From: Idiomarina tyrosinivorans
Lineage (GTDB): Bacteria > Pseudomonadota > Gammaproteobacteria > Enterobacterales > Alteromonadaceae
DNA length: 64,000 nt
Direction of reading: 5' to 3'
Assembly: GCF_003987475.1 (NCBI RefSeq)
Contig: NZ_PIQH01000001.1
Span: 124,001 to 188,000, forward strand
Notes under the pieces: model-generated
Told to the model about the DNA's origin: nothing
The model's input: the letters and a program-made list of their open reading frames with translations, nothing else
Databases searched by the model: none
In this document: positions 7,205 to 19,473 of the stretch, piece by piece
Position numbering within the stretch: position 1 is the first letter of the stretch
Layout of the letters: each line of letters begins with the position of its first letter
Translations under genes and position numbers: made by a program

Positions 7205-7678
7205 TTAGAATGCGAATCTAACGGCAAACCTCAGTGTTCTCGGCTCAATAGGGTGGAAGTGTACATCTTCAATGCCCGATGCGGGCTCTCCGGCGAGTCT
7301 TGATGCGTAGTAATAATCGATGTCATGGTCATTACTGTTAAACAGGTTAAGCGCATCTAACTGAAATTGCCACTGTCCGATTTTATAAGACGATCCCCAG
7401 TTGACTACCGTAAAATCATTCGATGTCATGTCATTAAAACTGTCTAATGTTCGCTCGCCAAAATGTCTTAGTCTCAAGCTAGTACTCAGCGCAGAGGATA
7501 TATTCCAGTTAGCGCCAATACTGGCGACCATCGGTAACGCACCATCGATATAGCGTCCTTCGCCATCAGCATCTGTTGTAAAGCGTGAACGAGTCCAGGC
7601 TAACTCAGTATCATATCGGCGGATGTTGGAAAAGTATAAGCGCGTGCTACGTAAATTCAGGAGCAGCCTAGGCCACAA
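7205..7678 (-). pseudogene. TonB-dependent receptor, C-terminal remnant
   Basis: About 145 residues match the end of an outer-membrane TonB-dependent receptor. They include alternating beta strands, ELAWTRSRF, GRYIDGALPM, LRHFGERTL, DALNLFNSNDHDIDYYY, HFHPIEPRTLRF and the terminal aromatic residue needed for barrel assembly. Complete receptors of this type have 650 or more residues and a plug domain, so most of the gene is missing. The frame upstream of about residue 15 no longer looks like receptor. A short frame at 7735-7737 (MLLNKQTLALTRR...) could be a leftover N-terminus, but this is speculative. A quasi-palindrome (7641-7706) sits exactly at the break. Confidence 0.8.
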
Positions 7679-7706
7679 ACGCGGTCAGATTTTACGTAGC
7701 GACGCG
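7641..7706. repeat. Inverted repeat at the break of the receptor remnant
   Basis: CGCGTGCTACGTAAA at 7641-7655 pairs with TTTACGTAGCGACGCG at 7691-7706, differing by one inserted base. Ten bases (GCTACGTAAA) are perfectly complementary. The repeat coincides with the point where receptor similarity stops, so it may be the footprint of the rearrangement that removed the 5' part of the gene. Confidence 0.6.
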
Positions 7707-7895
7707 TTAGCGCAAGCGTCTGCTTATTGAGTAGCATTTTGGTTAAATCCTTAATTGCGCATAATGTATATTATGTTAAATTAATAATATATATGGTTAA
7801 GCCAGTTAGTAAGTGTTGCCTCCAAAATCGTCTGCTCTGTCGCTATAATGTTCATTACCACAGTTAATCCTCTCAGATTTTAAGGACGTGCGTCT

Positions 7896-8117
7896 GTGTT
7901 CACTCAGCTAAAACAAATTGCTCGTAAGATGAAAACACAGCTCGTGGCGCTCTACTTTGCCGCTCGTGATCCGCGAACGCCAATAGTGACAAAATGTCTT
8001 ATTGCTTTGATTGTCGGTTATTCACTGAGTCCCATTGATTTGATTCCCGATGTTATTCCAGTGCTTGGCTTGCTAGATGATGGAGATGACTCGCGCCGAC
8101 GTAGTGAACGAACTTAA
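7896..8117 (+). pseudogene. YkvA/DUF1232 family membrane protein, apparently truncated
   Basis: The first 63 residues are a good DUF1232 protein: a basic N-terminus, AARDPRTP, a membrane segment and the family hallmark LSPIDLIPDVIPVLGLLDD. Right after LLDD the frame changes to a charged, unrelated tail (GDDSRRRSERT) and stops at 73 residues. Members I know usually continue with another hydrophobic region. In another frame the downstream bases read MTRADVVNELKGQLVN then stop, perhaps the tail of a different gene. A deletion joining two genes near base 8085 is the likely explanation. Start is GTG 7896, with TAAGGA further upstream. Confidence 0.6.
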
Positions 8118-8137: not shown

Positions 8138-8578
8138 ATGAGACGTTTGAAAGGCTACTCCAACATTTTCTATTCCATGCTACTGGCAGTGATTATGATT
8201 TCGGTGGTAAGCGGCTGTTTAATGATTCCTACCTTGCTCGAATTCAAGTTACAAATGGCGGTAGATTGGCGATTATCTGGAAGCCAGCGATTATGGACTG
8301 TTAGCTTTCATGTTTTAGCGTCCATTATTTCACTGATATTGATGGGCGCATTGTGGCAAGTTCATATGAAGTTGGGCTGGCGTAAGCAACAGCATCGCGG
8401 GAGTGGAACCTTCTGCGCAATAAGTTTGGTTGTTATGGCAGTGACTGGCGTTGGGCTTTATTATTTAAGTCAGTTAGATATGCAACTCTGGACTGCCCTA
8501 GCCCATACCGCTTTGGGGCTTGCTTTTACTCTGGCCTTTCTGCTGCATCTGCTATTTAGTATTCGCAGTCGCCGCTAA
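8138..8578 (+). CDS. Four-helix membrane protein, DUF4405/cytochrome b-like
   Basis: This 146-residue protein has four hydrophobic segments (about residues 12-32, 53-75, 88-110 and 118-140). Histidines occur at the membrane boundaries (FHVLASIIS, VHMKLG, AHTALG, LHLLF). The arrangement resembles small DUF4405-type or di-haem cytochrome b-like proteins, but I cannot prove haem binding. It follows the truncated YkvA gene with a short spacer. The stop codon TAA at 8576-8578 abuts the left 26-bp repeat of the island and overlaps the probable ancestral stop of the convergent MFS gene. Confidence 0.55.
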   Translation: MRRLKGYSNIFYSMLLAVIMISVVSGCLMIPTLLEFKLQMAVDWRLSGSQRLWTVSFHVLASIISLILMGALWQVHMKLGWRKQQHRGSGTFCAISLVVMAVTGVGLYYLSQLDMQLWTALAHTALGLAFTLAFLLHLLFSIRSRR

Positions 8579-8584
8579 TTGTGA

Positions 8585-8734
8585 CCTTTAAGCCCGGAAC
8601 GTGCGCTCAACGACACTTGGAAAAGCGTAAAAGAAGTGTTTGACAGCGCTGATAAAAGGAAGGCATGGAAAGCCTTCGAAGAAGCAAAAAACTATATGAA
8701 TGAGCAATCGCTATTTGAACTTAAGCAAAAATAG
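8585..8734 (+). pseudogene. C-terminal fragment of an unrecognised protein
   Basis: An open frame from 8585, immediately after a TGA, to TAG 8732-8734 encodes 49 residues with coding-like composition (NDTWKSVKEVFDSADKRKAW and more, ending ELKQK). It has no start codon near the left end, and its first eight codons are the 26-bp repeat. This fits a gene cut by the island boundary. A family could not be assigned. The APC permease gene starts 12 bases further on. Confidence 0.4.
8586..8611 (+). repeat. 26-bp direct repeat, left copy (island boundary)
   Basis: These 26 bases (beginning CTTTAAGCCCGG and ending GCGCTCAAC) are identical to 15913-15938. In the right copy they encode part of the MFS transporter C-terminus on the minus strand. 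Read in that same frame, the left copy continues leftwards as LKGHN and a TAG stop at 8575-8577. It therefore looks like the original end of the MFS gene, displaced 7.3 kb by an insertion. Confidence 0.85.
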
Positions 8735-8745
8735 GAGTTACTGAC

Positions 8746-9912
8746 GTGTCGAACAAGTTAGTAAGGGAAACAGGTTTATTTGGCGCACTTGTCATCGGGC
8801 TGGGTTCAATCATTGGTACAGGTGCCTATGTAAGCGTGGGACTGAGTGCTGAAATTGCTGGCTCAGGTATAGTGTTCGCAATCTTAATAGCCGCGGCGAC
8901 GGCATTAATGAACGGTCTATCATCGGCACAGCTTGCCGCTGCTCACCCCGTCAGCGGTGGAACGTACGAATACGGCTACCAGTTCTTGAATCCGTTAAGT
9001 GGCCGTATTGCCGGCATACTTTTTGTCGTAGCTAAAAGCGCATCTGCAGCGACCGCAGCGCTCGCGGTTGCCTGGTATATCAGTCTAAGTATCAGCGTGC
9101 CCTTCTGGGTCGTTAACTTTATCGCTGTCGGTCTTTTGCTCATGTTCACGGTCCTTGTGTTAGCTGGTGTACGTCGGACGAACTGGCTCAATTCATTATT
9201 GGTCTTAGTAAGCTTGCTGGGTTTAGTAACATTTATTGCTGCGGGCTTTAGCGAGCGTGACGCACAAGAAATAGTCGTGAGCGTATCGTCACCACTATCA
9301 CTATTTCATGCGGCTGCTTTGATGTTTGTTGCTTTCACAGGGTACGGGCGAATTGCGACCATGGGTGAGGAAATCAGAGCGCCTCGTCAAAATATCCCCA
9401 AGGCCGTGATTATTACGCTTGCCTTTATTAGTGCGATTTATATTTCGGTTGGCCTGACGATCTTGCATATGGGGGGGATCTCATCTTTTGAACAAAGTAA
9501 CTTCAATATCGCGCACCTAATCGCTGACCCAAATTGGCGCTGGGTCGTGATTATTGGAGGCTTGGTCGCAATGAGCAGCGTTGTTTTAAATCTAATACTA
9601 GGCGTATCACGGGTTATTCTTGCCATGGCTCGTCGAGGCGACTTACCTAATCGGATAGCGGTGTTGAGTACTGACAATAAGTCTGCACCAGCTGCTACAT
9701 GGTTAACGTTCGCTGTAATGTCATTGATTGCGACGCTCGGTGGTGTCAAAACCGCTTGGACATTGAGTGCGTTCACGGTATTGATATATTACGGAATAAC
9801 CAATATCGCGGCATTGAAAGTCCCTCCAGCACAGCGGTTCATACCTAAGTGGGTCTCTATTCTTGGGATCTTGGGTTGCTTCGGACTCGTGCTTTTAGCC
9901 GCCATCGCTTGA
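8746..9912 (+). CDS. APC superfamily amino acid/amine permease
   Basis: This 388-residue integral membrane protein has about 11-12 hydrophobic helices. Helix 1 contains GLGSIIGTGAYVSVG, the conserved substrate-binding break of APC transporters, and helix 6 contains FVAFTGYGRIATMGEEI, also typical of the family. It probably moves an amino acid or amine across the inner membrane; the substrate cannot be told from sequence. The start is GTG 8746 with AGGAG 8-9 bases upstream. The protein is somewhat short for the family (often 420-450), the end being a hydrophobic LVLLAAIA. It lies at the left edge of the island, with a transposase remnant just downstream on the other strand. Confidence 0.82.
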   Translation: MSNKLVRETGLFGALVIGLGSIIGTGAYVSVGLSAEIAGSGIVFAILIAAATALMNGLSSAQLAAAHPVSGGTYEYGYQFLNPLSGRIAGILFVVAKSASAATAALAVAWYISLSISVPFWVVNFIAVGLLLMFTVLVLAGVRRTNWLNSLLVLVSLLGLVTFIAAGFSERDAQEIVVSVSSPLSLFHAAALMFVAFTGYGRIATMGEEIRAPRQNIPKAVIITLAFISAIYISVGLTILHMGGISSFEQSNFNIAHLIADPNWRWVVIIGGLVAMSSVVLNLILGVSRVILAMARRGDLPNRIAVLSTDNKSAPAATWLTFAVMSLIATLGGVKTAWTLSAFTVLIYYGITNIAALKVPPAQRFIPKWVSILGILGCFGLVLLAAIA

Positions 9913-9921
9913 CTGGAGCTT

Positions 9922-10164
9922 TTATAGCCGACCGACGGGCTCTTTGCGGTCGGCACTTGCAAACTTAATATCTTCACTCCCTGAGTTCTCTCTGGGTTTA
10001 GATAAAGCTGTGATGTGATAATCGGGTCGCAACGTTTGCCGATCCATATCGAGTATATAGTCACCAAAACGATTAATGTGTGCGGTTCGGTAAGGCGATA
10101 GCCTGGCAATAATGTCGGCAAATTGACCTTTCCTTTGAACTAACACAATCTTATCGATGAAATT
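9922..10164 (-). pseudogene. Tn3-family transposase, C-terminal remnant
   Basis: On the minus strand the frame is open from 10164 (after a TGA) to a TAA at 9922-9924. It contains DIIARLSPYRTAHINRFGDY followed by ILDMDRQTLRPDY. The 'LSPYxTxHINRFGDYxLDxxR' block is, from memory, characteristic of the end of Tn3-family TnpA proteins, which are normally near 1000 residues. Everything upstream is missing. The possible internal start GTG 10146 is not evidence of function. I did not find convincing 38-bp terminal inverted repeats. The remnant shows that a Tn3-type transposon once visited the island. Confidence 0.55.
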
Positions 10165-10238
10165 TCAATTATATGACAGATCCAAACTCATCGGTCTTGT
10201 GGATTTTTTTCGTGGGGAGCCGTCACCAACCCCTCAAA

Positions 10239-11699
10239 TCACGGGTTTCCTTGCACAGCTATCCAAAATGGGAAACGACCATTTATTGGCTGCTCTCGCA
10301 CTACGGTTAAGGTTGTGCTGTCGATAATCGCGATCTTGTTTTCGCCAGTTACTGATACAAAAATAAATCGACCATCAGCGCTTGCTCTCACACCATGTGG
10401 TCCCGCGCCAACGTCTATCGTATGAACCAGTTTAAGTTTGTCTGTATCAATTATCGATATAGTAGAATCTGAAATTGCCCCAGTGACTACTAAGTGGCTA
10501 TTTGGAATTACGTCAATCCCTCCATGTCCTGTACCGACTTTGAATACTTTAAGCACTTTCTCTGATGCGATATCTAATACACCAACCTTTCCTGTAAAAT
10601 CTCTAAGCCACAACCTTTTATCATCTCGGCTTATGTCAATGTTATGCGGTGTTTTTATACCAGGTGTCGATATCTCATTTTCTTTTATTAAGCTTTGCAT
10701 ATTAATGACGGCAATAGCACCGGCTCCCTGCAGAGTAACGAATGCTTTGCTCCCATCAGCGTTGAAAACTGTGTTGTGAGGCTCCTTGCCAACCTTTATC
10801 TTTTTTATGACCTTCATTTTTTCCATATCAATCACTGTCACAGAATGCTGTTTAGGAACAACCGCAAATCCTAGTTTTCCATTTGGTGAAATTTTAACAC
10901 CTTGTGCTATGTCTCCTGCTGCCAGATTTGCCAAGATCTTACCAGAATCAGTATCAATTATATAAACTTGACCTGTTTTAAAACCCGAGACTAATAAACG
11001 ACTTCCGTCAGGCGTGATAGCATCATAATGTGCGCCTTTCACCCCCTCCCATACTTGTAGTGATGGGAGTTTTTCTATTTGGCTACTGTTTTGAGCTGCT
11101 ACGTAGATGGGGGATGGCAGCGTTTCATCTAACGTTAGTGCATAGGAGTTATCAGGAACTTTATTAGCGGAGATCGATGGTTTCTGGCCTATCATGCTTA
11201 ATCGTAGCTTGTAAACATCAGTTCCTGATATGTCTTCGTTTGCGATTGCGTTGATTTCATTAGCAGTATACGGCAAGAACGGTTTTTGAAGTTGATTATC
11301 ATTTCCAAACGACGTGACAATAAAATTTAACACATCGGCAATTTGTTGATCGCTTAAGGCTCCTTTCCAAGCCGGCATGTTACCACTGTAGTCTATGCCA
11401 TTTACCTCAATCGAGCCAGTCAATCCATAATTGACAACTTTTACTAAATATTGTCTTCCTGTGATACCTGTTTCTAAATTAAACATTTCGACAGCATGAC
11501 CCTTTTGGGGAGGAAATGAACCCGGAACACCTGATCCATCCATTTGATGACAGGCTGCGCAATAACTTTTATAAACTTGCGCTCCGTCGTCGAAATTTTG
11601 ACTATTATCTTGCTCAGCATGCGTTACATTTGCCTGCAAACCCAACAGAATGGCAATGGCTAACGGCTTCAAAAAAATAGTCGGTTTTTGGTAGCACAT
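10239..11699 (-). CDS. Periplasmic cytochrome c / YVTN beta-propeller fusion protein
   Basis: This is a 486-residue protein. A signal peptide ends after VTHA (about residue 28). A class I cytochrome c domain follows, with CAACH at residues 47-51 and a probable Met ligand in GNMPAWKG. From about residue 180 the rest is a seven-bladed YVTN-type propeller with repeated 'DTDSGKI', 'PHNTVFNADGSKAFV', 'GPHGVRASADGRFIFV' units. The architecture recalls cytochrome cd1/NirN-like proteins, but d1-haem binding is not shown. I chose ATG 11699 because AAGGAAT lies upstream and the signal peptide begins there; the frame extends further without a good start. It is A+T-rich compared with neighbours. Its promoter region was altered by the adjacent IS256 element. 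Confidence 0.75.
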   Translation of the reverse strand: MCYQKPTIFLKPLAIAILLGLQANVTHAEQDNSQNFDDGAQVYKSYCAACHQMDGSGVPGSFPPQKGHAVEMFNLETGITGRQYLVKVVNYGLTGSIEVNGIDYSGNMPAWKGALSDQQIADVLNFIVTSFGNDNQLQKPFLPYTANEINAIANEDISGTDVYKLRLSMIGQKPSISANKVPDNSYALTLDETLPSPIYVAAQNSSQIEKLPSLQVWEGVKGAHYDAITPDGSRLLVSGFKTGQVYIIDTDSGKILANLAAGDIAQGVKISPNGKLGFAVVPKQHSVTVIDMEKMKVIKKIKVGKEPHNTVFNADGSKAFVTLQGAGAIAVINMQSLIKENEISTPGIKTPHNIDISRDDKRLWLRDFTGKVGVLDIASEKVLKVFKVGTGHGGIDVIPNSHLVVTGAISDSTISIIDTDKLKLVHTIDVGAGPHGVRASADGRFIFVSVTGENKIAIIDSTTLTVVREQPINGRFPFWIAVQGNP

Positions 11700-11747
11700 T
11701 TTTTTATTCCTTAATGATGCAAACGTGGTTACTACTTGGAAGAATGA

Positions 11748-11846
11748 TATAGTCGAGAGGACGCCATTAAAAAGGATTCTCAGCTGAGTACTGCCTCTCA
11801 AGAAGCATATGCCACACTAAAGGATAAAGCAACAATTCGTCTGTAA
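11748..11846 (+). other. Short coding-like fragment cut by the IS256 left end
   Basis: The plus-strand frame after a TGA at 11745-11747 encodes 32 residues (REDAIKKDSQLSTASQ and more). Its composition looks like a real protein. The frame ends at a TAA contributed by the left terminal sequence of the insertion element. It is probably the leftover of a gene interrupted or deleted next to the insertion. I do not recognise the family, and a chance frame cannot be excluded. Confidence 0.25.
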
Positions 11847-13126
11847 TTTCCAGTTTACCCATTGATTTCACTTATTCAGCTCCGTCCATGGTCAGGTACT
11901 TTTTGCCGGAGCTCCATTCGTCCGATATTTCCATAATCACGGCGGTCACCAATCGTAGGCAAGACGCCTCATTCGGAAACAATGTTGCCACACGTGTTCG
12001 CCGCTTTATTTCTTTGTTTACGCGTTCAAGCGCATTGGTCGTTCTTAAACGACGCCGATGACCCGCTGGCAGTGCTAATATTGCCAAGCCTTCAGGAAGC
12101 GCTGTTTCTGCCCATGCTGCGAGTTTCGGTGCGCTTTGCTCATATTTCTTGCACAGCAGCTCGATGTGACGTTTTGCTTCCTCTGGTGTCTTGGCATCAA
12201 ACACACTACGAATGTCGTCGGCCACTTGCGTCTTCATGGCTTGCTTCGGTACATAGCTCTGTGCGTTTTGCTGCAGGTGGAACTGGCAACGCTGCCAAGG
12301 CACACTTGGAAAAACGCTCTTGCGGGCAGCTTTGAGCCCCTCATGAGCGTCGCTTACAAACAGTTTCATACCGTGCAAGCCTCTGTCTTTCAAGCTCAGA
12401 AGGAAATCACGCCAATGTACTTCTTGCTCTGAGAGCGATACTGAGCACCCTAGAAGCTCTCGATGCCCCGACTCATTCACGCCCATCGCAACGAGTACTG
12501 CGCAATCGATAACTGAGCCACCATGACGGACTTTTTCATAGCGGGCATCAAGCACCACATAAGGAAAGCTTCCAAGGGGTCGTTCGCGCCATTGCTGTAA
12601 GTGAACATCAAGCTCATGGGCTGCACGGCTCACTTGTGTGGAGCTGATTTCAAAACCGCAAAGCTCTTCAGTGACACGTGCAACTTTACGCGTTGAAACG
12701 CCCTGTACGTACATCTCAGCGAGCGCTAATTTAAGTGCCTTCTCTGAGCGTAGCCCGCGCTCTAAACTGCTTGGGTAAAAGTCTGTATCGCGCGTTTGAG
12801 GAATGTTTAAATCAAGCTTCCCAAAACGACTCTGAAGTGCTTTCTTCTTGTAGCCATTAGCATACCCTTGGCGCTCTTCAGAGCGCTCCCAAGGGCCGGC
12901 GCCGAGATGTCGCTCACGCTCCAGGCGCATGGCTTCATTCAACAAAATACTAATGGCTTCAGCAGTTCCATCTAAGCCTTGTTCAATCAATAATTCCAAA
13001 ACATCGCCAATCGATCTATCCTGTATATCGCAGGTCATTGTGGTTCCTCTTTCAATTTACTTTGGTCGGTAAATCAAAAGGATAAACTTTGACCTGCGCC
13101 TTTTCCAGCTCAGGCGAAATTACAGA
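11840..13126. mobile_element. IS256-family insertion sequence
   Basis: The element is about 1.29 kb. It carries one full-length transposase gene and ends in the 11-bp inverted repeat TCTGTAATTTC (11840-11850) and its complement GAAATTACAGA (13116-13126). Similarity between the ends is weak further inward. Size and gene fit the IS256 family, which usually makes 8-9 bp target duplications. Here the 9 bases outside the right end (AAGAATGAT, 13127-13135) do not recur at the left end but at 11740-11748, 91 bases outside it. Confidence 0.8.
11872..13038 (-). CDS. IS256-family transposase
   Basis: This is a 388-residue transposase of the Mutator-like IS256 family. The DDE triad is visible: Asp in YVVLDARYEKVR, Asp in KLFVSDAHEGLKAA and Glu in TTNALERVNKEIKRR, with the family C/H motif around WQRCQFHLQQNA. 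Length is normal and there is no frameshift, so it could be active. It starts at ATG 13038 with GAGGAACC just upstream and reads towards the cytochrome/propeller gene. It lies inside the element bounded by the 11-bp inverted repeats. Confidence 0.93.
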   Translation of the reverse strand: MTCDIQDRSIGDVLELLIEQGLDGTAEAISILLNEAMRLERERHLGAGPWERSEERQGYANGYKKKALQSRFGKLDLNIPQTRDTDFYPSSLERGLRSEKALKLALAEMYVQGVSTRKVARVTEELCGFEISSTQVSRAAHELDVHLQQWRERPLGSFPYVVLDARYEKVRHGGSVIDCAVLVAMGVNESGHRELLGCSVSLSEQEVHWRDFLLSLKDRGLHGMKLFVSDAHEGLKAARKSVFPSVPWQRCQFHLQQNAQSYVPKQAMKTQVADDIRSVFDAKTPEEAKRHIELLCKKYEQSAPKLAAWAETALPEGLAILALPAGHRRRLRTTNALERVNKEIKRRTRVATLFPNEASCLRLVTAVIMEISDEWSSGKKYLTMDGAE

Positions 13127-13214
13127 AAGAATGATGCACTAACCACTAAAGCGCCCCACTTCCATAATTCAGTTATCCAGAATGCTGATAACTAAATTTA
13201 TTATAATTACCAGA

Positions 13215-14072
13215 CTAAACTATGTCGTCGATCCACGCCAACTCGGAGTGCCGCTCCTTATGCTTCACAATAAACAAGGGCCGATAAAAATCGTTATTTA
13301 TCGGTATCTCCTTTACCATAGCTGCTTCCAGTAGAAGAGGTGTCGTGATCCGAGGAACATAAGCGATACCGACACCTGATGCCACAGAATGAATGATGCT
13401 TTCGTTGGTATTAAATTGTGTAACATCTTTTGGTTCGATGACTAATTCAGCCCATAGTTGTTCGGTATATTTTCGCGTTGCAGAGCCTCGTTCCCGGATC
13501 AACCAAGGCGCAGTTTGTAGTGACCCAAACTCGTTGTCTGGTGGCGCGATAAGCACGAGACTATCCTTTTTAAAGCATCGGCTCTTCAATGCACTATGGT
13601 GATTTGGGCCTTCCACTAGGGCAATATCGTCACGAAATGTTTGTACACGGTCTAAAGCTTCATCAGTGTTACCGATAAAGACGTTGATTTGGCAGCGTGG
13701 ATAGCGCTGTTTGATGTCCCGAATATAACGGGGCAGCCAATAATTTCCAACAGTCTGACTCGCGCCAATGTTCAGCACTGTCGGCTCAGATTGCTGTCGC
13801 TGCTTAAAATACATTTGAGTGCTTTTTTCAAGCGCTAAGATATCTTGCGCTCTTTTCTTCAACCAGATTCCTTCTGATGTTAACAAGATAGTTTTGTCTG
13901 TACTCTTTCTGCCAGGCGCTCGTTGAAGTAGACGGGTATTCAGTTGTTGTTCTAACCCCTTTAGACTTAACGAGACGGCTGCAGCCGTCATATTCAATTG
14001 CTCACTGGCTGATGCCAGACTATTAGACTCTGCTACCACCGAGAAAATGTATAGTTGCCTCAAATTAATCAT
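13215..14072 (-). CDS. LysR-family transcriptional regulator
   Basis: This is a 285-residue regulator. The N-terminal winged helix-turn-helix is clear (residues 1-60: LRQLYIFSVVAESNSLASAS, then LKGLEQQLNTRLLQR). The effector domain from about residue 90 begins with VLNIGASQTVGNYWLP, as in the CysB/CbbR-like branch. It is divergent from the YeiH-type transporter gene with a 95-base A+T-rich intergenic region, the standard arrangement for LysR control of a neighbour. In E. coli YeiE and YeiH are similarly paired. The inducer is not known. The protein is slightly shorter than the usual 300 residues. Confidence 0.88.
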   Translation of the reverse strand: MINLRQLYIFSVVAESNSLASASEQLNMTAAAVSLSLKGLEQQLNTRLLQRAPGRKSTDKTILLTSEGIWLKKRAQDILALEKSTQMYFKQRQQSEPTVLNIGASQTVGNYWLPRYIRDIKQRYPRCQINVFIGNTDEALDRVQTFRDDIALVEGPNHHSALKSRCFKKDSLVLIAPPDNEFGSLQTAPWLIRERGSATRKYTEQLWAELVIEPKDVTQFNTNESIIHSVASGVGIAYVPRITTPLLLEAAMVKEIPINNDFYRPLFIVKHKERHSELAWIDDIV

Positions 14073-14167
14073 AAATAATATTTACCTTTATAGATTTATA
14101 ATTTGTTTTATTCAATATTAATTTAAATATACTCACATTACGAATTGAAAATAATGATGAGGATCGC

Positions 14168-15163
14168 ATGAAAAATATAATTCCCGGGCTACTCGCATCA
14201 ATGGGCATAGCGGCCACTGTATTGTGGGGAAAGCATCAAGTTTTCTTTTTAGAAACGATATCTCCGCTTCTAATAAGTATTGCGTTAGGGATAGTGATAA
14301 GCCACGCTTTACCCAACGTTTGGAAATCTCGGTTAACGTCTGGATTGAACGTAGCAAAAGGTACTGTCTTGCGAACCGCGATCGTCTTATACGGTTTTAA
14401 TATTACGTTTCAAGCGTTTGCAGATATTGGATTATATGGTGTACTCAGTGCAGTCACCATGGTAGCAACGATTCTATGTGTAGGTGTGTGGCTCGGAAAA
14501 CGACTGTTTGGTTTGGATACCGAGCAATCCTTATTGGTTGCCGCTGGGAGTGCTATTTGTGGTGCGGCGGCTGTCGCCGCATTCGAGCCGATCATTAATG
14601 CAAAGCCGCACAAAGTTTTGACCGCCATAAGCACAGTGGTCGTCTTTGGTACACTATCAATGCTTCTGCTTCCAACGTTGTTTGAATTAGTGCCCTTGAC
14701 GCATCACCAGTATGGTCTTTGGGCTGGTATATCCATTCATGAGGTCGCTCAAGTAGTTGTTGCAGGAGATGCAATAAGTGAATCAGCAGCACATATTGCT
14801 GTTTTAGAAAAGATGTTCCGCGTCGTATTACTGGTGCCGGTACTACTTATTGTTGCTATCTGGACAAAGTCTCGTTTTCAAGACTCGAACATATCTGTTG
14901 TTGAGAAACGGATAACAGTTCCTTGGTTCGCGTTTTTATTCATTGGCGTTATTGTGATTAATTCGCTTGAAATATTACCTTCATCATTAATCGATATTTT
15001 ATCAAACGTGGCAACGTATTTGCTATGTGTGGCGATGGCTGCATTAGGTATGCTTACTCACATTAGTGTAATCAAACAAGGAGGTCTTCAAGCGTTTGGT
15101 TTAGCGGCCATATTATTTGTGCTATTGCTTGTTGCAGGATTTGGACTAGCAACATTTGGGTGA
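14168..15163 (+). CDS. YeiH family putative sulfate/anion exporter
   Basis: This 331-residue membrane protein has about 10 hydrophobic helices. Conserved UPF0324/YeiH features include SPLLISIALGIVISHALP near residue 40, GAAAVAAFEPIINAKPHK near residue 140 and GISIHEVAQVVVAGDAISES near residue 190. Family members are annotated as putative sulfate exporters; some are linked to sulfite or taurine catabolism, and evidence is limited. A GATGAGGATCGC ribosome-binding region precedes ATG 14168. It is divergent from the LysR gene and very probably controlled by it. It is A+T-rich, like the rest of the island. Confidence 0.85.
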   Translation: MKNIIPGLLASMGIAATVLWGKHQVFFLETISPLLISIALGIVISHALPNVWKSRLTSGLNVAKGTVLRTAIVLYGFNITFQAFADIGLYGVLSAVTMVATILCVGVWLGKRLFGLDTEQSLLVAAGSAICGAAAVAAFEPIINAKPHKVLTAISTVVVFGTLSMLLLPTLFELVPLTHHQYGLWAGISIHEVAQVVVAGDAISESAAHIAVLEKMFRVVLLVPVLLIVAIWTKSRFQDSNISVVEKRITVPWFAFLFIGVIVINSLEILPSSLIDILSNVATYLLCVAMAALGMLTHISVIKQGGLQAFGLAAILFVLLLVAGFGLATFG

Positions 15164-15321
15164 CATCACATAATGGAAATATGGCGCCTTCTTTACTCAA
15201 TAGCGGTAGCTTGCCACTGGCACAACTAAATAGATTTGTTACTGCTCCAGTTTACTGGTTAACTCGATATTTTGATATAGTATTAAAAGGTATTACCCCT
15301 TATTAATCTGAGAGATCAGGA

Positions 15322-15594
15322 ATGGCGACATCCGTAAAACTGAGTGATGATATGAAAAAACGCGTGCAGAACTTGGCCGATGCTCGTCGTCGCTCAGCGC
15401 ATTGGATCATGCGTCCGGCTATCCAAGATTACGTTGAACGTGAAGAAAAACGTGAAGCGTTTAAGCAAGATGCGCGCCGTGCTTGGGAAGAATACCAACG
15501 TAATGGTGTGCATTTGACATCAGCGGAAGCCGATGAATGGTTAGCAAAGCTTGAATCGGGTGACAATGCTGAGCTGCCAAAGTGTCACAAGTAA
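15322..15594 (+). CDS. CopG/RHH-type antitoxin of a ParDE/RelBE-like pair
   Basis: This 90-residue protein has an N-terminal ribbon-helix-helix (MATSVKLSDDMKKRVQNLAD, then RRRSAHWIMRPAIQDYVERE), which would bind DNA as a dimer and repress the operon. The charged C-terminal half (WEEYQRNGVHLTSAEADEWL) is the part that wraps the toxin in such pairs. ATG 15322 is preceded by ATCAGGA. A repeated GTATTA motif at about 15281-15298 is a possible operator. It overlaps the toxin gene by 13 bases. It remains intact although the toxin frame is broken. Confidence 0.85.
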   Translation: MATSVKLSDDMKKRVQNLADARRRSAHWIMRPAIQDYVEREEKREAFKQDARRAWEEYQRNGVHLTSAEADEWLAKLESGDNAELPKCHK

Positions 15595-15872
15595 TTTGGA
15601 CCCCGTCCGCTTTAGCAGACGTGCAACGTCTGCATGAATTTTTGCGAGAGAAAGATCCGATAGTGGCGCGCGAAGCCGTCAAAAGCATTCGCCAAAACCT
15701 CCTTATTTTGGCTGGTCACCCTGAGATTGGCCGCCCGCTGGATTATATGCCCATTGAATTCAGAGAATGGCTCATTGATTTTGGCTAAAGCGGTTATGTC
15801 GCACTCTACCGTTACGATGGCGTTAAAGCGATCATCCTTGCGGTACGACATCAAAAGGAAGTTGGCTGTTAG
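15582..15872 (+). pseudogene. ParE/RelE-type toxin gene with in-frame stop codon
   Basis: The GTG start lies inside the antitoxin end. The frame gives 68 residues (VIWTPSALADVQRLHEFLRE, then FREWLIDFG), then TAA at 15786-15788. It continues in the same frame with SGYVALYRYDG and ILAVRHQKEVGC to TAG 15870-15872. Together the two parts make a 96-residue toxin of normal ParE length, and the second part contains the family's conserved 'ILAVRHQKE' end. A single base change replacing a residue after FG by TAA explains the break. The missing C-terminal strand is usually needed for toxicity, so the toxin is probably inactive. The last 4 bases overlap the MFS gene end. Confidence 0.85.
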
Positions 15873-17104
15873 TGATCGTTTGGCTTATTCAGCATAAATC
15901 CCGATAAACCCTCTTTAAGCCCGGAACGTGCGCTCAACACCGCGAGTAATATCCACGCCGTAAACAACGCAAAGATTTGATCCGGTTGCCAACCAAGATA
16001 ATCGACCAACATACCGTATATCCACGGGGCTGATGCAGTAGAGAAGATCATCAACGACGTGGTTAATGAACGAATGGCACCCAAAAACTTCGTGCCATAA
16101 AGCTCGGGCCACAACGCGCTTGCTGTAGGAGCTGTAGCACCAATACCTATGCCGAGTAGCAGCATAAAGGGCATCACAGTCCAGCTACCGTTGGTGAGTG
16201 TTATCAACGCCATAGCAGCGCCAAGTGGCAACACCATGATCGGCAATAAACGCCGTGCCGTGAAACGATCAATCATTGAGCCGGCAACCACAGACATTAA
16301 CCAGTGCCCTATTCCGTACAGTATGAAGGCCGTTGCTAAACTTTGCTGGCTCCAGCCTTCGCTAGCAATGAGACTTTGTTGTTGGATAAATAGCGCGGTC
16401 ACCATAAAAGGACCAGCAAGTACCAGTGGTAGAATTCGCCAGAAGCGCGAATCTTTTAATACGTCGCGGCGTCGCCAATGCGCTTGCGGCCCGGCATCAA
16501 TTGCCTCTGATTCAGTGGTTAATGTCGAACGCTTTAATAACCAAAACGCCAATGGTAAATAGCCCAGCAATACCAAAGCGGCGAGCAGATACCAGCGTAG
16601 GTCAAAACTCAGTGCCGCGAAAATACCCACGAGTATCGCCGGTAAAACCGCCTCGCCCAGAGGCACTCCTGAGGACGAGATACTTAACGCCTTGCCTCGC
16701 GAACGATTGAAAAACCGCGCCATGGTGGTTTGCGAAATGTGCGGTAACATGCCTTGACCAAAGAAACGCAGCAGCAGAAAGCCAATTGTCAGACTAATAA
16801 AGCCACTGATCTGCGTCATCATTAAGCACGCTGCAATTAAGCCAATCGCGCAGCCAACCACCACACGTCTCAGTGGTAAATCATCAACCACTTTACCCCA
16901 GATCAGTAATAACGTGCCGCTGGTCAAGGTGGCAAGCGCATAGCTCGCACCGTAGTCGGCCGCATTCAGGCGCAGTTGCTGCTGAATATCCGCACTAAAC
17001 CAACTAATGAAAAACGACTGACCAATATTGCCAAAGAATATGGTGAGCAAACCAAAGCTCAACAGTGGCCAATGTTGACGAATCAATTGTCGATAATTGA
17101 GCAT
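15869..17104 (-). CDS. MFS transporter with a probably replaced C-terminus
   Basis: This 411-residue protein has 12 hydrophobic helices and a central charged loop near residue 215 (LLKRSTLTTESEAID). Helix 2-3 carries WGKVVDDLPLRR, the degenerate MFS motif A. The substrate is unknown. It is the last gene of a minus-strand run SulP, Usp, MFS with gaps of only 16 and 13 bases, so one transcript is likely. The last 14 residues beyond the 26-bp repeat overlap the toxin gene end and the island edge. The ancestral end was probably LKGHN, still visible at 8575-8589. The change is short and after the last helix, so function may be kept. Confidence 0.82.
   Translation of the reverse strand: MLNYRQLIRQHWPLLSFGLLTIFFGNIGQSFFISWFSADIQQQLRLNAADYGASYALATLTSGTLLLIWGKVVDDLPLRRVVVGCAIGLIAACLMMTQISGFISLTIGFLLLRFFGQGMLPHISQTTMARFFNRSRGKALSISSSGVPLGEAVLPAILVGIFAALSFDLRWYLLAALVLLGYLPLAFWLLKRSTLTTESEAIDAGPQAHWRRRDVLKDSRFWRILPLVLAGPFMVTALFIQQQSLIASEGWSQQSLATAFILYGIGHWLMSVVAGSMIDRFTARRLLPIMVLPLGAAMALITLTNGSWTVMPFMLLLGIGIGATAPTASALWPELYGTKFLGAIRSLTTSLMIFSTASAPWIYGMLVDYLGWQPDQIFALFTAWILLAVLSARSGLKEGLSGFMLNKPNDH
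15913..15938 (+). repeat. 26-bp direct repeat, right copy (inside the MFS gene)
   Basis: This copy is identical to 8586-8611 and lies 42 bases from the present MFS stop codon. On the minus strand it encodes LSARSGLK. The MFS codons beyond it (EGLSGFMLNKPNDH) would come from island DNA if the island was inserted here. Confidence 0.85.
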
Positions 17105-17117
17105 AACCGTTGCCCTA

Positions 17118-17969
17118 TTAGCGCAACACCAATAAAGGTGATGCTGACGTCTCTAACATTTTGGTTGTGGTACTACCCACCAACAATTGACGGATCCGCG
17201 AATGTCCGTATGCACCCATAACCAACAGATCAAGCTGGTGTTGCTGTTGGTATTGATGAATACTTGCTTCCACATCCCCGGCTAACAATTCGGCCTTCGC
17301 GTCATGACCTTGCTGCTGCAGGGTTTCAACGGCCCACTGCAGCGCCGAGTGATGGTCATCGCTAGCTGCACCTACCATGACCACATGCACAGGCAAGCCT
17401 TTCAGTAATGGACTAGCGGCTACCATTTGCACGCCTTTACGAGTGGTTTCGCTATTATCAAACGCTAATAACACGCTGCTCGGTGCGTTAAAGTTATCCG
17501 GTACCAACAGCACTGGTCGGTGTACCCGTCGTAAAATCGTTTCTAGCTGGCTGCCGATGTGGTCGCCTTGTTCGTGTTCTTCGCCATGTAAACCCAACAC
17601 GGTCAGCCGAGTCTCTGGCTCGATATCTAGCAACGTATCAACCAATTGACCGTGCCGTTGGCGGCTGTTGATGGCGATCTGTGGGATTTCTTCGGCTACC
17701 GAGTTGTGCGCTTTATCAAGCATCAAGTGGCCTTGCTGCAAGGCTAATTTTGCTCGCTTTTCATCGAGTTCCGCCAGCTCATCTAGCAGCGCCTCTTGGC
17801 TACCCAAACCAATATTCCCCGACAGCTCTGACTTTGCGGGGTAGCGATTTTCATCCAGTACGTGTAGTAACGTTAGCGCAGCACCCATCCGTTGTGCGGC
17901 CCACGCCGCGTAGCGGCTGACACTGATAGCGGCACTGGAGCCGTCGATACAAGCAATAACATTTTCCAT
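17118..17969 (-). CDS. Tandem universal stress protein
   Basis: This 283-residue protein has two UspA-like domains (about 1-145 and 150-283). The second has the ATP-binding pattern MGAYGHSRIRQLL followed by GSTTTKML. The first has a degenerate GLHGEEHEQGDHIGSQ version. Such tandem proteins act in stress survival, and those next to SulP transporters are thought to modulate anion or bicarbonate uptake. Here it lies between a SulP gene (16 bases upstream) and an MFS gene (13 bases downstream), which supports a functional link to transport. The physiological signal is not visible in the sequence. Confidence 0.88.
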   Translation of the reverse strand: MENVIACIDGSSAAISVSRYAAWAAQRMGAALTLLHVLDENRYPAKSELSGNIGLGSQEALLDELAELDEKRAKLALQQGHLMLDKAHNSVAEEIPQIAINSRQRHGQLVDTLLDIEPETRLTVLGLHGEEHEQGDHIGSQLETILRRVHRPVLLVPDNFNAPSSVLLAFDNSETTRKGVQMVAASPLLKGLPVHVVMVGAASDDHHSALQWAVETLQQQGHDAKAELLAGDVEASIHQYQQQHQLDLLVMGAYGHSRIRQLLVGSTTTKMLETSASPLLVLR

Positions 17970-17985
17970 AATGACTCTCCGCTCG

Positions 17986-19473
17986 CTAGTGACTGTTTAA
18001 AATATCTTCGGCGCTGGCTTTGTCGTGTACCCCAAAACGGTCGACAATGGTTGCGCTGGCTTGATTTAACCCGAGGACTTCTACATCCGCACCCTCGCGG
18101 CGGAATTTGATCACCACCTTATCGAGAGCGCCTACCGCGGTAATATCCCAAAAATGTGCTTGGGTAAGATCAATCACCACACGGTCAACCGCTTCTTTAA
18201 AGTCGAATGCAGCAATAAATTTCTCGGAAGCGCTGAAGAATACTTGGCCAACCACGTTATAGCGGCGCTCGGTTCCTTCATTATTAATGCTCTCACTAAT
18301 GTGCAGATAATGGCCGACTTTATTAGCAAAGAATAATGAGGCCAGTAATACCCCAACACCAACGCCAATGGCTAAGTTGTGGGTAGCAACCACCACCACC
18401 ACCGTACTCAACATAACGATATTGGTCGACAAAGGATAGCGTTTAAGATCGCGGATGGACGACCAGCTAAAGGTTCCGATCGATACCATGATCATCACCG
18501 CAACAAGAGCGGCCATCGGGATTTGCCGTAACCACTCGTCCAATACCAAAATTAAAATCAGCAAGAACACACCTGCAGTGAGTGTTGATAGACGCCCACG
18601 GCCACCCGATTTTACGTTGATAATGGATTGGCCAATCATTGCACAACCCGCCATGCCACCAAATAAACCGGCACCAATATTAGCAATACCCTGGCCTTTG
18701 CATTCCCGGTTGCGATCGCTTTGGGTATCGGTGAGGTCGTCAACGATGGTCGATGTCATCATCGATTCCAGTATGCCCACCACAGCTAAACCCAGCGAAT
18801 ATGGCAATACAATCCATAGCGTTTCCAGGTTCCAAGGGACATCTGGCCACAAAAAGACGGGTAAGGTATCTGGTAGTTGCCCCATATCGCCAACAGTGCG
18901 GACGTCGATGTTCCAAATAATAGCCACAATCGTCAGGCTGATAATGCAAACCAGCGGTGACGGTAACCATTGGCCAACTTTTGGCACGCGTGGGAATAAA
19001 TAGATAATGCCTAAGCCTGCGGCAGTCATCGCATATACGTGCCAGGTTACGTTGGTCAACTCTGGTAGTTGGGCCATAAAAATTAAAATGCCAAGGGCAT
19101 TAACAAAGCCGGTGACCACTGAACGGGAGACGAAGCGCATTAGTTCACCTAAGCGTAAATAGCCCGCGATAATTTGGAAAATGCCCGTTAGCAACGTCGC
19201 CACTAATAAATATTGTAGGCCGTGCTCTTTCACTAAGGTCACCATAACCAATGCCATTGCGCCCGTCGCGGCACTGATCATGCCCGGGCGACCACCGACA
19301 AACGCGATGATGGTGGCAATACAAAATGACGCGTATAACCCGACTTTCGGATCCACGCCAGCGATGATGGAAAAAGCGATAGCTTCAGGGATTAATGCTA
19401 AAGCAACGACGATCCCCGATAAGAGATCGCCGCGAATGTTGAATAACCAGTCTCGTTTTAATGCTGCTAGCAT
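17986..19473 (-). CDS. SulP/SLC26 family inorganic anion transporter with STAS domain
   Basis: This is a 495-residue protein. The membrane part (about 12-375) starts with [20 protein letters not shown], the SulP signature. A cytoplasmic STAS domain occupies about 390-490 ([20 protein letters not shown]). Homologues carry sulfate, bicarbonate or chloride; the closest type by arrangement is the stand-alone SulP with a linked stress protein. It begins at ATG 19473 and heads the SulP-Usp-MFS run. The selectivity cannot be assigned from the sequence alone. Confidence 0.9.

Follow-up and report, generated by a model that had tools for sequence, protein, structure and literature searches.

How did 7.3 kb of DNA come to lie between two perfect 26-bp repeats in the 3' end of a transporter gene? 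The question is raised by Idiomarina tyrosinivorans (assembly GCF_003987475.1), in which an MFS transporter gene on contig NZ_PIQH01000001.1 ends in such an insert. The stretch of DNA analysed, called the window, comprises 64,000 nucleotides (positions 124,001 to 188,000 of the contig), and coordinates refer to the window unless another locus is named. The insertion of foreign DNA into the 3' end of the MFS gene is well supported. The explanation that we prefer, and which we trust and doubt in about equal measure, is that a linear fragment of 7,301 bp, coming from a larger island of the type found in a congener (genome G006), was captured there by a non-homologous event that duplicated 26 bp of the target. 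The only unusual point is this 26-bp target duplication without an evident enzyme, while the cargo and the transposon background are of known kinds.

The repeats and the target gene

Bases 8586-8611 and 15913-15938 are identical 26-mers in direct orientation, whose identity ends at both edges of each copy, and they enclose the 7,301 bp from 8612 to 15912. In the 21 contigs of the genome, 2,426,240 bp in total, a search that allowed up to 3 mismatches found the 26-mer twice, and both copies are those described here. The pair is the longest exact direct repeat of the window. Without the right copy the longest is 17 bp, and in 20 sequences of 64 kb simulated with a second-order Markov model it was 14 to 18 bp, in agreement with a preliminary description of this DNA, according to which chance does not explain the pair. 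The right copy, read on the minus strand, encodes LSARSGLK within the MFS gene, and the left copy in the same frame encodes LSARSGLKGHN followed by a TAG at 8575-8577, which overlaps the TAA (8576-8578) of the plus-strand gene 8138-8578. These frames had been read correctly in the preliminary description.

The 26-mer has no match above chance in the G006 island and is therefore taken to belong to the target. It is free of internal inverted repeats of at least 4 bp, and no tRNA gene was found in the window by ARAGORN. A search for the 26-mer in other genomes, as the preliminary description had proposed, and in viral contigs returned no exact copy among genomes of 84,980 species or among 2.9 million viral contigs, collections from which the own or very near records may be excluded. 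In ungapped comparison with the loci analysed, with nine stretches of the own genome set aside, the best match was 19 of 26, and ten shuffled queries reached 17 to 19. An att-site reading of the 26-mer was rejected on these two results. A XerC-like half site was also considered and rejected: CGTGCGCTCAA, compared by eye with the XerC arm of E. coli, agrees at 8 of 11 positions, no XerD-like arm follows it, and the dif scan of the window matched 7754-7781 alone.

The insert and its relative in a congener

The amino acid permease encoded in the insert, which is of the APC type, was searched in 295 genomes of the family (E <= 1e-90; all genome collections used here hold one genome per species). 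It matched 31, the own genome included, and G006, which belongs to the same genus, gave the sole match at 97% identity. In G006 the whole arrangement lies in the opposite orientation on a single contig, and the window aligns to it in three blocks (8607-10120 at 94.1%, 10090-11822 at 95.1% and 13145-15892 at 92.8%) and a separate piece of 268 bp at 89.2%. The two genes that are incomplete at the ends of the insert are intact in G006. The cytochrome-like gene encodes 158 aa with a CxxCH motif recognized by eye and no Pfam family, and the Tn3-family transposase gene tnpA encodes 1003 aa (NF033527), is preceded by a tyrosine recombinase gene and has beyond it a divergent gene with coiled-coil-like matches.

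At the left edge, homology to the cytochrome-like gene of G006 is beyond doubt from 8615 onwards and may begin at 8606, and the start of the gene is missing. At the right edge, homology to tnpA of G006 and of a second congener, G005, reaches about 15910 (to 15892 by blastn, the remainder by alignment and eye). Both homologies thus end within about 3 bp of a repeat, and on these alignments both ends of the insert are well supported as broken genes. Since the ends lie inside genes and the 26-mer is foreign to the island, the insert is not an intact transposon, nor is it an island that has its integrase next to an att site. The preliminary description had taken the interior for DNA inserted into the MFS 3' end, and the match to the island of another species, mostly at 93-95%, bears this out. 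It had also named, as evidence to the contrary, island genes in strains lacking the left repeat. Such a case does occur in G006, but there the island sits elsewhere without the 26-mer, so the repeat is taken as the target's and the insertion is not contradicted. The G+C content of the insert without its insertion sequence is 43.7%, against 47.8-49.7% in three flanking gene stretches.

Because the right end lies in the tnpA remnant, the MFS tail EGLSGFMLNKPNDH is read from that remnant, as expected from the earlier proposal that the gene was given a new tail. We compared 14 MFS relatives, 13 of them from genome loci and one from a Morganella plasmid, and none has an ending like EGLSGFMLNKPNDH, which, in strains lacking the island, would have spoken against the insertion. 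From the conserved GAIRS block to the C-terminus the actual protein has 70 residues, more than any of the 14 relatives (56-68), and the protein predicted from the joined flanks has 59, inside this range. The length of the MFS C-terminus is a weak guide.

Origin of the insert

In the preferred explanation, the fragment would have been cut through the cytochrome-like gene at its left end and through the tail of the Tn3-family tnpA at its right end, and would have been captured without homology at a break or a stalled fork about 0.8 kb from the chromosomal dif site. The duplication could arise by fill-in of a break with a 26-nt stagger, or by a replication template switch that returned 26 bp behind its point of departure. 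The terminus, as a break- and fork-prone region, would provide the setting; the dif region is where forks meet and breaks occur. We infer these fill-in or template-switch steps, as well as the state of the locus before the insertion.

Several observations weigh against this explanation. A length of 26 bp is long for end-joining fill-in, and a search of the own genome for an Rpn-type nuclease (PF04754) gave no match. The junctions would carry fillers of 3 nt (8612-8614) and about 2 nt, which may be diverged homology instead. The MFS protein has 411 aa, within the 401-413 of its relatives, and the joined-flank protein has 400, just under this range, so that length is not decisive. The G+C content between dif and the left repeat is 43.8%, which is low as well. 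An empty site, the first check proposed in the preliminary description, was not found in the genomes searched, in which the best MFS relative has 47% amino acid identity; as no close MFS relative is available, we infer the contiguity of 8138-8578 with the MFS gene before the insertion. The gene 8138-8578 is matched in 10 of 246 family genomes, the own genome included, and the nine other loci, which extend about 1.5 kb on each side, gave no tblastn match to this MFS protein.

The preliminary description implied a discrete mobile element with attachment-like repeats at its ends, and this part of its interpretation is not supported, whereas the insertion and the new tail are. Site-specific integration of a circle at a 26-bp core, by a tyrosine recombinase that was lost or acted in trans, would make the repeats attL and attR, and we consider it improbable. 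In its favour are the exact direct repeats on both sides of foreign DNA, their length of 26 bp, which is plausible for a core, and the tyrosine recombinase in the TnpS position of the G006 island. However, the insert starts and stops within genes, whose remnants abut both repeats and leave no room for an integrase beside either. As had been noted before, no integrase lies between the repeats: none was recognized among the 12 open reading frames scanned with Pfam (six likely genes and six other, overlapping frames of at least 80 aa without a family). In addition, the sequence hit by the insertion is not a tRNA gene but an MFS tail of poor conservation, and the 26-mer has neither exact copies in the collections nor an internal inverted repeat. 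A single crossover of a circle that already bore at least 26 bp of this MFS end, which could be an excised island or a plasmid with a trimmed homologous segment, is likewise unlikely, as 26 bp is short for RecA-dependent exchange and the circle would need MFS sequence between the cytochrome and tnpA remnants, of which none was seen. It has a precedent in E. coli conjugation tests, in which a duplication product arose in 56 of 60 clones and the duplicated stretch measured 109-950 bp in the 14 clones that were sequenced; in the available part of the source, the authors explain this by single crossover of a circle whose homologous end had been trimmed (PMC3240628).

Homology-facilitated illegitimate recombination would start from incoming DNA with an insert-MFS joint, paired by homology on the MFS side and joined illegitimately at TCAA on the cytochrome side. 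At the junction, both the end of the 26-mer and the cytochrome-like gene of G006 contain TCAA, but this route needs a prior insert-MFS junction and an illegitimate join that lands by chance just 26 bp from it, and we give it little credence. The insert could also be a one-ended or otherwise aberrant product of a transposase, of the Tn3 family or another, whose insertion left an unusual duplication. Transposase gene remnants are present at 9913-10120 and 15873-15912. Against this, the inverted-repeat score of the 80-bp insert ends (8) was reached by 46 of 200 shuffles and is not beyond chance, and duplications made by the Tn3 family are 5 bp long. PF01526 has no match in the own genome (E <= 0.001), a search that also misses the short remnants of the window and so excludes a substantial copy only. 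A transposase product is very unlikely.

If the insert is a captured fragment, such a fragment can look like a mobile island, down to the perfect repeats at its flanks. The repeats alone could pass as att sites, and the broken ends are seen only through the longer island of a relative. The literature search found no paper joining Idiomarina, dif, genomic island and transposon, and none combining target site duplication, long direct repeats and related themes.

Contents of the insert

The features of the locus are collected in Table 1. Apart from the tnpA remnants, the only transposase gene inside the insert is that of the insertion sequence of the IS256/Mutator family. This sequence is flanked by CACTAAAG at 11815-11822 and 13144-13151, an 8-bp duplication where G006 is continuous, and the inverted-repeat score of its ends was reached by 4 of 200 shuffles. 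Its insertion would be later than the state shared with G006, and is probably a separate event from the capture.

Table 1. Coordinates of the insert, its target and the neighbouring dif site in the window.
Feature	Position	Strand	Remarks
Chromosomal dif site	7754-7781	+	ATTGCGCATAATGTATATTATGTTAAAT; single match in the genome
Small membrane protein	8138-8578	+	DUF4405 below cut-off; convergent with the adjacent MFS gene as inferred before the insertion
Left 26-bp direct repeat (probable target duplication)	8586-8611	.	minus strand LSARSGLK, with GHN and TAG after it
5'-truncated cytochrome-c-like gene remnant	8612-8734	+	label from the CxxCH of the G006 protein, by eye; no Pfam family; the CxxCH segment is missing too
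APC-type amino acid permease	8746-9912	+	97% amino acid identity to the G006 protein
C-terminal fragment of Tn3-family transposase gene	9913-10120	-	10017-10120 87.5% identical to the intact G006 tnpA
Probable deletion junction	10090-10120	.	two tnpA-derived stretches of G006, of about 30 bp, fused; crcB and arsenic-type operon missing
Cytochrome c and YVTN-type beta-propeller protein	10239-11699	-	start by analogy to G006
IS256/Mutator-family insertion sequence	11823-13143	-	transposase 11872-13038; absent in G006
LysR-type regulator	13215-14072	-	
YeiH-family putative sulfate exporter	14168-15163	+	
CopG/RHH antitoxin	15322-15594	+	
ParE-type toxin pseudogene	15582-15872	+	in-frame stop 15786-15788; frame open in the G006 counterpart, which matches PF05016
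Last ~40 bp of Tn3-family tnpA gene	15873-15912	-	now supplying the MFS tail
Right 26-bp direct repeat	15913-15938	.	inside the MFS reading frame
MFS transporter gene	15869-17104	-	insertion target, chimeric 3' end

In G006 the interval between the propeller and APC genes contains crcB and an MFS gene, a putative GAPDH-like gene, an SBF-family transporter and an LMWPc-ArsR fusion, all of which the window lacks. The MFS, GAPDH-like, SBF and LMWPc-ArsR genes appear to form an arsenic-type operon. Its absence coincides with the tnpA-like fusion at 10090-10120, so a deletion in the window is the simplest reading, by which the operon would have been lost at tnpA-derived repeats, before or after the capture. 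Short C-terminal pieces of tnpA separate the cargo modules both in G006 (locus L040, 1970-2001 and 7115-7459) and in the window (9913-10120). It is as if modules of the G006 island had been gained or lost by recombination at tnpA ends. The only two exact direct repeats of at least 17 bp in the G006 region are tnpA-derived, and locus L075 of G005, with a related module, has no exact direct repeats of at least 16 bp.

A comparison of the whole insert with plasmids gave 58 records, all at 60-80% identity and none covering 80% of the query, and the 20 of these matches that were listed are partial, with single genes or the toxin-antitoxin pair. The whole insert has no match among phages, and one scan of viral contigs found no relative of the YeiH protein. 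The MFS gene belongs to a set with USP and SulP genes (15869-19473). A similar set of MFS, SulP and USP genes lies together on a Morganella plasmid (L113), and relatives of the MFS protein (E <= 1e-60) are found on 14 plasmids of Proteus, Providencia and Morganella, suggesting that the set is a mobile anion-transport cluster.

The dif neighbourhood

The dif site of Table 1 is the only one found in the window by a scan that required at least 17 of 22 arm positions and at least 7 per arm, and each of the 19 genus genomes searched has exactly one match to the dif pattern (up to 2 mismatches). The XerC arm has the C of GCGC here, where the 18 other genus members searched have T. The dif site of G005 (1,387,613-1,387,637) agrees in position and sequence with the one printed for Idiomarina loihiensis L2TR in the available part of PMC2731167.

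The insert starts 831 bp from dif, and its right part, which was used as a query in 395 genomes and matched 25, 10 of them in the genus, lies 5.4 kb from dif. When the own genome and three genus members at 63-68% identity are set aside, six congeners remain at 75% or more. The related module lies near dif in four of the six (G005 at 327 bp, G014 at 339, G009 at 340 and G011 at 1,593) and far from it in two (G006 at 51 kb and G016 at 828 kb), and a 15.5-kb contig of G014, without a dif match, bears a second copy. This suggests that the dif neighbourhood in Idiomarina tends to collect transposon-linked modules, a tendency that is not absolute. In G011 the order, read by eye from translations, is a Lon-like gene, dif, MCP and ccoN; relative to it, everything between dif and the MCP gene (21092) of the window is extra, including the MFS, USP and SulP genes.

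Beside dif in the window are a C-terminal fragment of a TonB-dependent receptor (7205-7678, PF00593 below cut-off) on one side and a broken gene (7897-8110), which we take to be DUF1232-like, on the other. These decayed genes suggest repeated gain and decay at this place. In three Idiomarina genomes, exact partial repeats of dif lie beside it and begin at dif itself (L078, 8766 and 10589, 180 bp; L079, 10845 and 12671, 20 bp; L080, 6393 and 7835, 17 bp). Phage-family genes, among them in L079 one for a rolling-circle replication protein, lie between the dif copies of L079 and L080, as remnants of filamentous phages that exploit Xer would show. Locus L077 has three repeats of 16-20 bp, none of which brackets its module (7439-8057).

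A further proposal, which we regard as a long shot, is that an undescribed terminus-linked activity of Idiomarina captures broken fragments beside dif with duplications of about 26 bp, so that the surroundings of dif would serve as both dustbin and nursery of integrase-less island modules. If long duplications of this kind recur near dif, capture at terminating forks becomes testable.

Comparison with known systems

Genomic islands bounded by att sites resemble the insert in that foreign DNA lies between exact direct repeats. In contrast to them, the insert has no integrase, no conserved target was found, and its ends lie inside genes. Xer-exploiting elements (IMEX) are comparable in position, as the insert is close to dif and three congeners have a partial second dif repeat beside dif. 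They differ in that the boundaries of the insert are not dif-like and the single dif lies 0.8 kb outside it.

Tn3-family transposons with tnpS and tnpT, such as Tn4651, and with toxin-antitoxin pairs are close to the G006 island. A region of 11007-16829 in G006 (locus L043) holds tnpA with an RHH-ParE pair at its 3' end, the tyrosine recombinase gene and, divergently oriented, the coiled-coil-like gene. Apart from the RHH-ParE pair, these match the TnpS/TnpT layout described for the family (PMC7157771, as far as available). The G006 transposase is 69.0% identical to the closest of the plasmid matches listed and 52.7% to the transposases of TnXax1. In the same partial source, most toxin-antitoxin pairs of the family lie directly upstream of the resolvase gene, unlike the G006 pair, whose position is absent from the layouts given there and which may be an undescribed layout. 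The insert of the window differs from these transposons in that it has only remnants of tnpA and no complete copy, no resolvase, no terminal inverted repeats, and a duplication of 26 bp instead of 5 bp.

A further comparison is with illegitimate, RecA-independent capture, including models of island assembly by template switching (PMC5350276, seen here in part). The mechanism is a proposed one in the present case and no Rpn nuclease was found in the genome, but the insert shares with such events ends without homology, possible short filler or microhomology at the junctions, and termini at arbitrary positions of donor genes.

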